Source: Halosimplex litoreum | GTDB lineage: Archaea > Halobacteriota > Halobacteria > Halobacteriales > Haloarculaceae | Reading direction: 5' to 3' | Assembly (NCBI RefSeq): GCF_016065055.1 | Contig: NZ_CP065856.1 | Location: 3,347,836 to 3,411,835, forward strand | Length of the DNA: 64,000 nucleotides | Shown: piece by piece, positions 44,001-47,990 of the stretch | Position numbering within the stretch: position 1 is the first letter of the stretch | Layout of the letters: every line of letters starts with the position of its first letter | The notes under the pieces: model-generated | What the model was told of the DNA's origin: nothing | The model's database searches: none | What the model saw: the letters and a program-made list of their open reading frames with translations, nothing else | Position numbers and translations under genes: made by a program

Positions 44001-47000
44001 ATGGAGCAAACGGAGTTCGGGGACTTCGGGGCCGGAGCGGATCGGCCCGCCGACGAGGCCGAGGCCGTCGCCGGGAACGACACCGGCGGCGAGGTCGCGA
44101 CAGTCGTCGACGCCGACTCGGCACGGTTCCCCGACGCCCAGGGCACGGTCACGCTGACCGTCACACAGGTTGACTACACCGTCGAGTACAGCGGTGACGA
44201 CGAGTTCCCAGTCGTCCACGTCTTCGGCCGTCGAGAGCCAGGCCCGGACGACGATCACCCGCCCCTCGAACACGTCGAGGTGTACGACTTCGAGCCGTAC
44301 TTCTACGCGCCCATCGAGAACGTCGACGACCAGCGCATCGCGGGGTACGACGGCCTCGTCGACTACCGCGAGACCGACGAGCAGGGCGAACCGTTCGAGT
44401 CCATCCGCGGCGACCGCCTCGCGAAGATCGTCGGCCGCACGCCCCGCGACGTGGGGCAGATCCGCGACGACTTCGAGCACTACGAGGCGGACATCCTCTT
44501 CCCCAATCGCCTGCTCATCGACAAGGACATCGAGAGCGGCGTCCGCGTGCCCGAACGGCGCACCGACGACGGCACCATCCGCGTCCCTCATCAGGAGGTC
44601 GAGGCCGTCGACGACAACGCCACGCCGCGGGTCAACACCTTCGACATCGAGGTCGACGACCGCAACGGCTTCCCCGAGGACGGCGAGCAGACCATCGTCT
44701 GTCTCACCTCCCACGACTCCTACGACGACAAGTACATCAACTGGCTCTACGAGTCGCCCGACGGCGTCGACGGGCCCGCCGCGCTGGGGGCGTACGACCC
44801 GATCGAGGCCGATATCGACGCCGAGGTTCGCGTCTTCGACTCCGAACCGGAGATGCTCGACGCGTTCATCGAGTACATCGAGGAGACCGACCCGGACCTG
44901 CTCACTGGCTGGAACTTCGCCGACTTCGACGCGCCCTATTTCCTCGACCGCGTCGAGGAACTGGCGGGGCCGAACCACGACTACGACCTCGACATCGACC
45001 GACTCTCCCGGGTAAACGAGGTGTGGCGCTCGGACTGGAACGGCCCGGACATCAAGGGCCGGGTCGTCTTCGACCTCCTGCGGGCGTACAAGAGCACGCA
45101 GTTCACCGAACTGGAGTCCTACCGCCTGGACGCCGTCGGCGAGATGGAACTCGACGTGGGCAAGGAGCGCTACCCCGGCGACATCGGCGACCTCTGGGAG
45201 GACGACCCCGAGCGCCTGCTGGAGTACAACCTCCGGGACGTGGAGCTGTGCGTCGAACTGGACCGCAAGCAGGACATCATCGCCTTCTGGGACGAGGCGC
45301 GCAAGCTCGTGGGCTGTAAGATCGAGGACGCCCCCACCGCCGGCGACGCCGTCGACATGTACGTCCTCCACAAGGCCTACGGCGAGTTCGCGCTCCCCTC
45401 GAAGGGCCAACAGGAGGCCACCGACGAGTTCGAGGGCGGCGCCGTCTTCGACCCGATCACCGGGGTCCGCGAGAACGTCTCGGTGCTGGACCTCAAATCG
45501 CTCTACCCGATGTCGATGACGACCATCAACGCCTCGCCGGAGACGAAGGTCGACCCCGAGACCTACGGCGGCGAGACCTACCACACGCCCAGCGGCGTCC
45601 ACTTCCGGAAGGAACCGGACGGCATCATCCGGGAGATGGTCGACGAACTCCTCGAAGAACGGGAGGAGAAGAAGTCCCTGCGAAACGACAACGCCCCCGG
45701 ATCTGAGGACTACGAACGCTACGACCGGCAGCAGGCCGCGGTGAAGGTGATCATGAACTGCTTCACGCCGGACACCGACGTGCTCACACCGGACGGCGTC
45801 CGCAACATCCGGGACCTCGACGTGGGAGACTCCGTCTACTCGCTGGACCCGGAGACGATGGAGATGGAGGTCAAGCCGGTCGTCGAGACGCACGCCTATC
45901 CCGACTACCGGGGCGAACTCGTCGACGTCGAGACGAGCAAGACGGACTTCCGCGTGACGCCGAACCACCGGATGCTCGTCCGGAAGAACGAGCGAAACGG
46001 GATCTCCTGGGATCAGGACGACTACCGGTTCGTCGAGGCCGGCGACCTCGATCGGGCGACGAACTACGAACTCCCGCACGGCTGGGACGGCCCGGACGGT
46101 GAGCGGATCGACGAGGTCGACTTGACCGAACTACTCGACGACTACGAGGTGTGGGTGCGTCCGGAGGTCCACGGCCACACGTTCGCCGCCGAGATCGGAT
46201 ACTACCCCGACAAAGTGCTCAAAAACGACGTCGGGCAGGAGGGGTACGTCTTCTCCGCCGAGGAGTTCGAGGCCCACAGGGAGTACATCGACAGCGTCGC
46301 CGAACGATGCTTCGTCCACGCCGAAGCGAACAGGAAGTGGATCCCGAGAACCTACGGCGGTGACGACTTCCTCGAACTGCTGGCCTGGTTCGTCACCGAG
46401 GGGAACGTCTACACGTCCGAAGAGAAGCAGTTCGGCGACAACCTTCGTGGGTCCGCGACTACGGTCAAGATCGCACAGGACGCTCCCGTGGCGACCGACG
46501 GAGGCGAAGGCGGCGCGGCTGCCATCGAAGACGATCACCACGCCGCCATCGGCGATCTGCTCGACAGGATGGGCTTCGACTACTACGTCGACGACCAGTC
46601 CTACCAGTTCACGTCGCGGCTCCTCGGTCGGTATCTCGAAGACGCCTGCGGTGACGACAGCTTCGCCAAGCGGGTCCCGGAGTTCGTGTTCGATGCATCA
46701 CGCGAACAGAAGCGACGGTTCCTGGACGTGTTGCTCGACGGCGACGGTGACCGTCAAGAGAACTCCTGGCGGTATTCGACGGCCAGCGAGGAACTGCGCG
46801 ACGACGTGCTCCGTCTGTGCGCCCATCTCGGCCTCACCGCGAATTACCGGAAAGACAGCGGCAGCTGGCGGATCTACGCCACCGAGAACGCGAAGAACAC
46901 GCTCCGGATGCACCGCAGCGGCTCGCGCAGCGAGGCCGAAGACGGCGTCTACTGCGTCACGGTCGAAGACAACCACACGCTGATGGCGGGCCGCAACGGG

Positions 47001-47990
47001 AAGTTCCAGTTCGTCGGCCAGTCGCTCTACGGCGTCTTCGGCTGGGACCGCTTCCGCCTCTACGACCGGGAAATGAGTGCCGGCGTCACCTCCACGAACC
47101 GGGAGGTCATCAGCTTCACCGAGCAGGCGGCGAACGAACTTGACAAAGAAGTTATATATGGAGATACTGACAGTGTCATGCTCGAACTCGGCGGAGAGAC
47201 GCCGAAAGAGGAGGCTATCGAGCGCTCGTTCGAGATAGAGGATCACATCAACGACCGCTACGACGAGTTCGCGATCGAGGAGCTCAACGCCGAGCTCCAC
47301 CGCTTCCAGATCGAGTTCGAGAAGCTCTATCGGCGCTTCTTCCAGGCGGGCAAGAAGAAACGGTACGCCGGGCACATCATCTGGAGCGAGGGGAAAGACG
47401 TCGACGACATCGATATCACGGGCTTCGAGTACCAGCGCTCGGACATCGCGCCGATCACGAAGGAAGTCCAGCTGCAGGTCATCGAGATGATCGTCCACGG
47501 GGAAGACCTCGAGGACGTGAAAGACTACGTTCACGACGTCATCGAGGACTTCCAGAACGGCGAGGCCAGCCTCGACGACATCGGGATCCCCGGCGGTATC
47601 GGGAAGAAGCTCGACAACTACGACACCGACACCGCGCAGGTCCGCGGCGCGAAGTACGCCAACCTCCTGCTGGACACCAACTTCGCGAGCGGGTCGAAGC
47701 CCAAGCGGGTCTACCTGAAGAAGGTCCACCCCGAGTTCTTCCGGGAGATCGAAGCCGAGATGGATCTCGACCCCGCGGAGGACCCGCTGTACGGCGAGTT
47801 CAAGCGTGACCCGGACGTGATCTGCTTCGAGTACGCCGACCAGGTACCCGACGCCTTCGAGGTCGACTGGGACAAGATGCTCGACAAGACGCTGAAAGGC
47901 CCCATCGCCCGCGTTCTCGAAGCGCTCGACATCTCCTGGGAGGAGGTCAAAAGCGGCCAAGAGCAGACGGGCCTCGAGAGTTTCATGTGA
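44001..47990 (+). CDS. polB: Family B DNA polymerase with an intein at motif B
   Basis: A 1329-residue precursor; removing the 421-residue intein (587-1007) leaves about 908 residues, normal for archaeal PolB. The proofreading domain has Exo I FDIEVD near residue 215. Polymerase motif A is LDLKSLYP (Asp497), motif B is split by the intein (KVIMN / SLYGVFGW) and motif C is YGDTDS (Asp1055 and Asp1057). It is the replicative or repair B-type polymerase of the cell. Codons 47139-47174, exactly over YGDTDS, are AT-rich and unlike the rest of the gene (see findings). The gene follows repeat element B and its own TATA box. Confidence 0.97.
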   Translation: MEQTEFGDFGAGADRPADEAEAVAGNDTGGEVATVVDADSARFPDAQGTVTLTVTQVDYTVEYSGDDEFPVVHVFGRREPGPDDDHPPLEHVEVYDFEPYFYAPIENVDDQRIAGYDGLVDYRETDEQGEPFESIRGDRLAKIVGRTPRDVGQIRDDFEHYEADILFPNRLLIDKDIESGVRVPERRTDDGTIRVPHQEVEAVDDNATPRVNTFDIEVDDRNGFPEDGEQTIVCLTSHDSYDDKYINWLYESPDGVDGPAALGAYDPIEADIDAEVRVFDSEPEMLDAFIEYIEETDPDLLTGWNFADFDAPYFLDRVEELAGPNHDYDLDIDRLSRVNEVWRSDWNGPDIKGRVVFDLLRAYKSTQFTELESYRLDAVGEMELDVGKERYPGDIGDLWEDDPERLLEYNLRDVELCVELDRKQDIIAFWDEARKLVGCKIEDAPTAGDAVDMYVLHKAYGEFALPSKGQQEATDEFEGGAVFDPITGVRENVSVLDLKSLYPMSMTTINASPETKVDPETYGGETYHTPSGVHFRKEPDGIIREMVDELLEEREEKKSLRNDNAPGSEDYERYDRQQAAVKVIMNCFTPDTDVLTPDGVRNIRDLDVGDSVYSLDPETMEMEVKPVVETHAYPDYRGELVDVETSKTDFRVTPNHRMLVRKNERNGISWDQDDYRFVEAGDLDRATNYELPHGWDGPDGERIDEVDLTELLDDYEVWVRPEVHGHTFAAEIGYYPDKVLKNDVGQEGYVFSAEEFEAHREYIDSVAERCFVHAEANRKWIPRTYGGDDFLELLAWFVTEGNVYTSEEKQFGDNLRGSATTVKIAQDAPVATDGGEGGAAAIEDDHHAAIGDLLDRMGFDYYVDDQSYQFTSRLLGRYLEDACGDDSFAKRVPEFVFDASREQKRRFLDVLLDGDGDRQENSWRYSTASEELRDDVLRLCAHLGLTANYRKDSGSWRIYATENAKNTLRMHRSGSRSEAEDGVYCVTVEDNHTLMAGRNGKFQFVGQSLYGVFGWDRFRLYDREMSAGVTSTNREVISFTEQAANELDKEVIYGDTDSVMLELGGETPKEEAIERSFEIEDHINDRYDEFAIEELNAELHRFQIEFEKLYRRFFQAGKKKRYAGHIIWSEGKDVDDIDITGFEYQRSDIAPITKEVQLQVIEMIVHGEDLEDVKDYVHDVIEDFQNGEASLDDIGIPGGIGKKLDNYDTDTAQVRGAKYANLLLDTNFASGSKPKRVYLKKVHPEFFREIEAEMDLDPAEDPLYGEFKRDPDVICFEYADQVPDAFEVDWDKMLDKTLKGPIARVLEALDISWEEVKSGQEQTGLESFM
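45759..47021 (+). mobile_element. PolB intein (421 residues) with LAGLIDADG-type endonuclease
   Basis: Inserted between Asn586 and the Ser that starts SLYG of motif B. The N-terminal splice residue is Cys587 (CFTPDTDVLTPDG, block A). Block B is VTPNHRMLV with the TxxH pattern. Endonuclease motifs are LLAWFVTEG and LLDGDGD, both with acidic residues kept, so the homing enzyme may be active. Block F is VYCVTVEDNHTLMAGRNG. The C-terminus is FVGQ followed by extein Ser: Gln replaces the usual Asn and Gly the usual penultimate His. Gln-ending inteins can still splice, more slowly. The boundary codons look like the host gene. Confidence 0.93.

Follow-up and report, generated by a model that had tools for sequence, protein, structure and literature searches.

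We report a 39-base stretch of polB in Halosimplex litoreum whose synonymous codons appear to come from another lineage and which spans a vacant intein insertion site. A scar of AT-ending codons recurs at four sites in three haloarchaeal genes (polB, DP2 and MCM). The best explanation, to which we assign a probability of about 0.58, is recurrent replacement of short allele tracts at homing-endonuclease targets, the tract described here being a fragment of another lineage's polB. Recombination at a site targeted by a homing endonuclease would insert the short foreign piece, and we infer that the endonuclease triggers this recombination. At frequently invaded haloarchaeal sites, endonuclease cutting, homing, loss of the intein and repair with DNA from other cells would repeatedly exchange between a few tens and about 300 extein bases, and the synonymous codons there would cease to follow the host.

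The window, by which we mean the whole 64-kb stretch of DNA analysed, contains the following features of the gene (slashes within motifs mark intein junctions).

44001–47990, + strand: polB, family B DNA polymerase, from its open reading frame and alignment to haloarchaeal PolB
45759–47021, + strand: resident intein of 421 codons at KVIMN/S, recognized as an insertion relative to intein-free PolB
47136–47174, + strand: AT-rich recoded tract, ELDKEVIYGDTDS, 13 codons, 11 of them AT-ending (P = 3.8e-11)
47163–47168, + strand: empty intein insertion site YGD/TDS, junction 47165/47166, placed by the junctions of 44 intein-bearing alleles
47172–47174, + strand: Ser637 codon AGT of the DTDS motif, TCG or TCC in congeners and hence of the other codon family

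The precursor is 1329 aa long, or 908 aa once its one intein is removed; the nearest named relative is Halosimplex pelagicum (98% identity across a 159-residue query). Haloarchaeal polB inteins enter at four positions in our alignments, extein codons ~305, 499, 586 and 634. One of the two frequently invaded sites, KVIMN/S, is occupied here, as it is in about 30 loci, and the resident intein starts with CFTPDTD and ends with VGQ. The other, YGD/TDS, holds an intein in about 55 of the 392 Halobacteriales genomes, spread over 34 of 95 genera, as judged by an intein-start pattern; the homologous site is filled in these relatives and vacant in the polB of the window. A first-pass annotation of this DNA had called it an empty site split as YGDTD/S. 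The kind of site and its emptiness stand, and the split has to be moved, since the haloarchaeal junction, read from the 44 intein-bearing loci, is YGD/TDS.

The tract comprises extein codons 625–637 (GAA CTT GAC AAA GAA GTT ATA TAT GGA GAT ACT GAC AGT). Given the amino acids, the next-base context and polB's own codon bias, 1.41 AT-ending codons would be expected, and the P value listed above is the Poisson-binomial probability of the observed 11. Next-base context was included in the expectation because avoidance of GAGCTC affects Glu codons at EL pairs and accounts for part of the Glu signal there. The polB windows with the strongest AT-ending excess all overlap the tract, and nothing in the rest of the gene, where codons end in G or C, comes near it. 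Among 17,713 windows of 13 codons from GC3-rich open reading frames across the 64 kb, the others with at least nine AT-ending codons were untranslated leaders or extreme 5' ends of reading frames; the tract is the sole such stretch within the coding interior of any gene in the window. The AT-rich synonymous codons at motif C and their contrast with the remainder of polB had both been described in the first-pass annotation, over 47139–47174, and we find them as described in a slightly longer tract. Similar tracts elsewhere in the gene, which would have counted against its reading, are absent, the top windows all overlapping 47136–47174. The earlier observation was, if anything, understated, and its interpretation is right in part.

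Compared with three Halosimplex relatives, the tract is identical in amino acids (100%) and only 69% identical in nucleotides, against 89–93% nucleotide identity elsewhere. Ten of its 13 codons differ from theirs with zero residue changes, so the target has been altered silently only, on an intein-free allele; the background of synonymous difference is 14–20%, and for the relative with a background of 14.5% (L002) the excess has P 7.5e-7. The edges are sharp, and the contiguous foreign stretch of 39 bp spans the YGD/TDS junction. The best matches to the tract are alleles of Halorubrum (L179, L012) and Halobellus (L175, L048), which are 90% identical there and 76–80% elsewhere in the gene, and the three nearest Halosimplex relatives rank only 47–49 of 177 in tract similarity. 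The tract is thus phylogenetically discordant with the surrounding gene, at 90% to other genera and 69% to congeners. Its AT-rich haplotype, defined as a 26-base core with at most two mismatches, occurs in 11 of 392 genomes from five genera (reversed control, 0), and the same codon choices are made across genera: GTT rather than GTA, ATA rather than ATT, and GAC kept at D636. Intein-free relatives sharing these AT-rich codons, which the first-pass annotation had taken as evidence against its view, therefore do exist formally in other genera; the three nearest Halosimplex relatives are not among them. On sequence comparison, the window's allele is best read as a horizontally shared, intein-free, recoded motif C related to the Halorubrum and Halobellus alleles, and it is possibly endonuclease-resistant; poor cutting would then account for its persistence.

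What counts against import is that the supposedly imported piece retains the exact Halosimplex peptide, whereas in the closest-matching alleles one or two residues are different. Neither the 392 genomes of the order nor the 146 of the family yielded a donor identical to the tract, and a close donor within the family was rejected, there being none with three or fewer mismatches among the 146. A viral donor was likewise rejected, as exact patterns had no matches in viral contigs, and the PolB genes of viruses and plasmids have tracts merely 54–74% like the window's.

Across 166 dereplicated haloarchaeal polB genes, the AT-ending excess forms one island at extein codons about 556–655, which falls in the window as two parts.

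45666–45758, + strand: first part of the class-wide island (extein codons 556–586), upstream of KVIMN/S
47022–47228, + strand: second part (extein codons 587–655), including both flanks of YGD/TDS

The peaks reach z 9.1 at codons 625–634 and z 8.3 and 7.7 at codons 579–596, so that the strongest excess lies at the two frequently invaded sites; these and all other z values given here are descriptive and overstate independence, because the genomes are related and the genes few. The next-best windows all fall at codons 559–648, apart from the 5' end of the gene, and the rarely invaded sites at codons 499 and 305 show no AT3 excess. Outside the island, the AT3 of 13-codon windows tracks that of the host (slope 1.00 ± 0.18, intercept 0.00 ± 0.03), whereas at the vacant YGD/TDS site it is decoupled from the host (slope 0.16, intercept 0.27, r 0.05). 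Counts in the tract are overdispersed and block-like (dispersion 3.58 vs 0.99 ± 0.30), and synonymous codon differences between close genome pairs are about twice as frequent in the island as elsewhere. On trees from which the island had been left out, Fitch counting gives more AT/GC changes per taxon there at fourfold columns of polB, 0.176 vs 0.085.

The invariant Ser637 switches codon family 36–37 times on a polB tree of 168 taxa. Switching of this kind is more frequent beside junctions (P 0.003), yet it is present at some distant or control columns too. Frequent switching between TCN and AGY next to the junctions would fit replacement better than point mutation; as lone proof of import we set it aside as too noisy, because some unrelated Ser columns switch too. 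Separately, an invariant Ser at polB codon 500 (DLK/SLYP; 45498–45500), beside a rarer intein site, switches family 18–20 times among 109 taxa and shows no AT3 excess.

The pattern extends to other replication genes. In DP2, the large subunit of PolD, the gene-wide maximum (z 6.9) is found immediately before the AKRR/N intein site and across it, and a second peak (z 3.9) coincides with a further intein site; the top window of MCM (z 4.5) is at the GDPGTGK/S (GK/S) intein site. Both genes have a composition intercept raised by 0.14, and AT/GC changes per taxon at fourfold columns, counted in the same way, are 0.152 vs 0.084 in DP2 and 0.163 vs 0.111 in MCM, compared with 0.131 vs 0.133 at the P-loops of CDC48. 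The controls CDC48, RadA and class I RNR have peaks at the 5' end only, with interior maxima of z 3.7, 3.1 and 3.8, respectively. In nrdJ, where the intein is rarer, the site is only weakly elevated, and we do not count this gene as a further positive. Because polB, DP2 and MCM show the excess at their main intein sites and the control genes have no comparable interior peak, we tie the tract to intein biology, and on these points, foreignness to the gene, position at a frequently invaded site and a link with inteins, the first-pass annotation is borne out.

The AT richness itself would stem either from an AT-rich original source or from selection for departure from the endonuclease target, since silent changes tend to be AT-ending when the starting codons are GC-ending. 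The mean AT3 of replaced codons is about 0.3 and that of typical haloarchaeal donors 0.13; import alone therefore does not explain it. The first of the alternatives, which we take in falling order of probability and which the first-pass annotation had named as its second option, is that silent, target-destroying changes were selected in place, point mutations having built a resistance allele. Such an allele would be AT-ending because preferred codons end in G or C, and the AT richness exceeding the donor pool would be accounted for. Every change is indeed silent and confined to a target-sized stretch. Point mutations by which an MCM target escaped arose in the course of one experiment (PMC10643990), and according to Naor et al. 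endonucleases tolerate single synonymous changes, so that wholesale recoding would be needed (PMC3024317). Halorubrum loci, sampled by position and not by codon content, also fit: the vacant alleles, mostly with ELDREVT-type peptides, average 7.0 of 13 AT-ending codons (n = 21, several near-duplicates), and the intein-bearing ones, with the peptide ELGHDVA, average 2.2 (n = 6). Haloferax, however, has one GC-rich haplotype common to vacant and occupied alleles, the AT-rich form is no commoner on vacant alleles in Halobellus either, and class-wide the difference is small, with an AT3 excess in intein-bearing YGD/TDS alleles as well (0.144 ± 0.027 vs 0.205 ± 0.023). Point mutation in place would, moreover, have to arrive at the same codons in different genera (GTT, ATA and the GAC of D636), and TCN to AGT requires two changes by way of another residue. 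Together with the discordant sharing across genera, which favours import of an already recoded allele, this makes in-place selection unlikely.

The Halorubrum comparison suggests instead that inteins there carry their own GC-rich flank and that the AT-rich form may be an intein-free site lineage travelling between genera. This bears on the next alternative, the one favoured in the first-pass annotation: that the tract is a relic of the lineage's own intein, homing having co-converted the flanks of an AT-rich donor and the intein having later been lost precisely. Such a course has a parallel in plant mitochondrial cox1, where exon sequence is co-converted beside a homing group I intron and, in one reported case, was kept after intron loss (PMC3192709). 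There, as here, short foreign synonymous runs sit beside an endonuclease insertion site; unlike cox1, the present case concerns archaeal inteins, is class-wide, involves several genes and both sides of the site, and has a haplotype that is not linked to the element but found chiefly on alleles lacking an intein. A matching AT-rich 5' flank is found in one of about 55 intein-bearing alleles, G051, a Natronomonas-like member of the same family in which GAACTTGACAAAAATGTTATATATGGGGAC precedes the intein with 26 of 30 bases as in the window. Its 3' side nevertheless reads ACT GAT TCA and lacks the window's ACT GAC AGT, the remaining intein-bearing alleles have GC-rich flanks and mostly different peptides, and the Halosimplex genomes checked contain no YGD/TDS intein. 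With the haplotype lacking on intein-bearing alleles, G051 excepted, co-conversion followed by loss of an own intein is not supported as it was written, and we consider it quite unlikely.

Also improbable, in our judgement, is a nucleotide-level property independent of inteins, such as codon pausing, RNA structure or a mutational hot spot, that would keep catalytic motifs AT-rich; inteins would then coincide with AT-rich motifs because both favour conserved ones. Conserved sites are intein targets (PMC2814812), motif C has a weak excess (0.231 vs 0.168, in the top 8% of windows) in eight betaproteobacterial Pol II genes that show no trace of an intein there, and some haloviral PolB genes have 5–7 of 13 AT-ending codons at this motif. 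Yet the P-loops of CDC48 and RadA are flat, other conserved PolB motifs have no excess in the class-wide profile, many alleles are entirely GC-ending, so that such an element would be dispensable, and the discordant sharing and overdispersion would be left unexplained. That the TATA-like TTATATAT within the tract is an internal promoter is very improbable, as it is restricted to this allele group and lacking in most haloarchaeal alleles, and its letters are fully accounted for by in-frame coding.

Alleles that resist homing endonucleases or gene drives alter the target and leave the protein unaltered. The window's allele is like them in its altered target and intact protein, its resistance being putative. 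More tentatively, we suggest that Haloarchaea may exchange ready-made, synonymously recoded intein targets that are proof against homing endonucleases. This would be a counterpart, arisen in nature and spreading horizontally, of resistance to gene drives, and the codon scars at the main intein sites of several replication genes would be its visible trace.

Intein homing and gene flow among haloarchaea are already well documented (PMC3024317, PMC4071816, PMC10643990). The endonuclease of the Haloferax polB intein is known to drive homing in vivo (PMC3024317), and in homing of haloarchaeal polB and MCM inteins a flanking proline is co-converted at MCM-d (Naor et al. 2011, PMC3024317; PMC10643990). 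These studies share with ours the genes and endonuclease-driven gene conversion; they address how efficiently inteins home and which residues occupy the site, and no analysis of synonymous composition at vacant sites appears in the passages searched. A survey of haloarchaeal inteins reported frequent horizontal transfer between genera for the same intein alleles (Soucy et al. 2014, PMC4071816); it used intein presence and sequence, and the terms codon, flank, synonymous and GC content are absent from it. We found no description of synonymous scars at vacant intein sites in the open-access literature, to which our search was confined, subscription literature lying outside it. Swithers et al. 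argued that target constraint makes host immunity difficult and that inteins choose conserved motifs partly for this reason (PMC2814812); synonymous sites may give hosts an escape route. If vacant targets are swapped and synonymously recoded, hosts have room for escape, vacant genes would preserve traces of past invasion that can still be read, the gain and loss of inteins and immunity to them could be counted from sequence alone, and natural test cases for gene-drive resistance would be at hand. Short stretches in core replication genes could then, as a caution, hold another lineage's history.

Several further observations were made in passing. By open reading frame length compared with intein-free relatives, the PolD large subunit of the same genome (1758 aa) and its nrdJ product (1451 aa) appear to be intein-bearing and its MCM without an intein. 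CDC48 and RadA have a strong AT-ending excess in their first 20 codons, as expected at translation starts, which served as an internal check of the method. The highest non-5' window of class I RNR (z 3.8) is at codon about 524 (RPIGLGMMGF), where the sampled alleles have no intein; this could be another vacant intein site. The haloviral PolB genes mentioned above belong to tailed viruses (L488 and L499, which are HSTV-4 and HRTV-21, and L487) with gene averages of 0.11–0.22, and encounters with intein-bearing hosts might expose such viruses to the same pressure. A plasmid of Salinibaculum sp. KK48 encodes a second family B polymerase (54.5% identity over the query) whose gene AT3, 0.40, is far above that of chromosomal polB genes.
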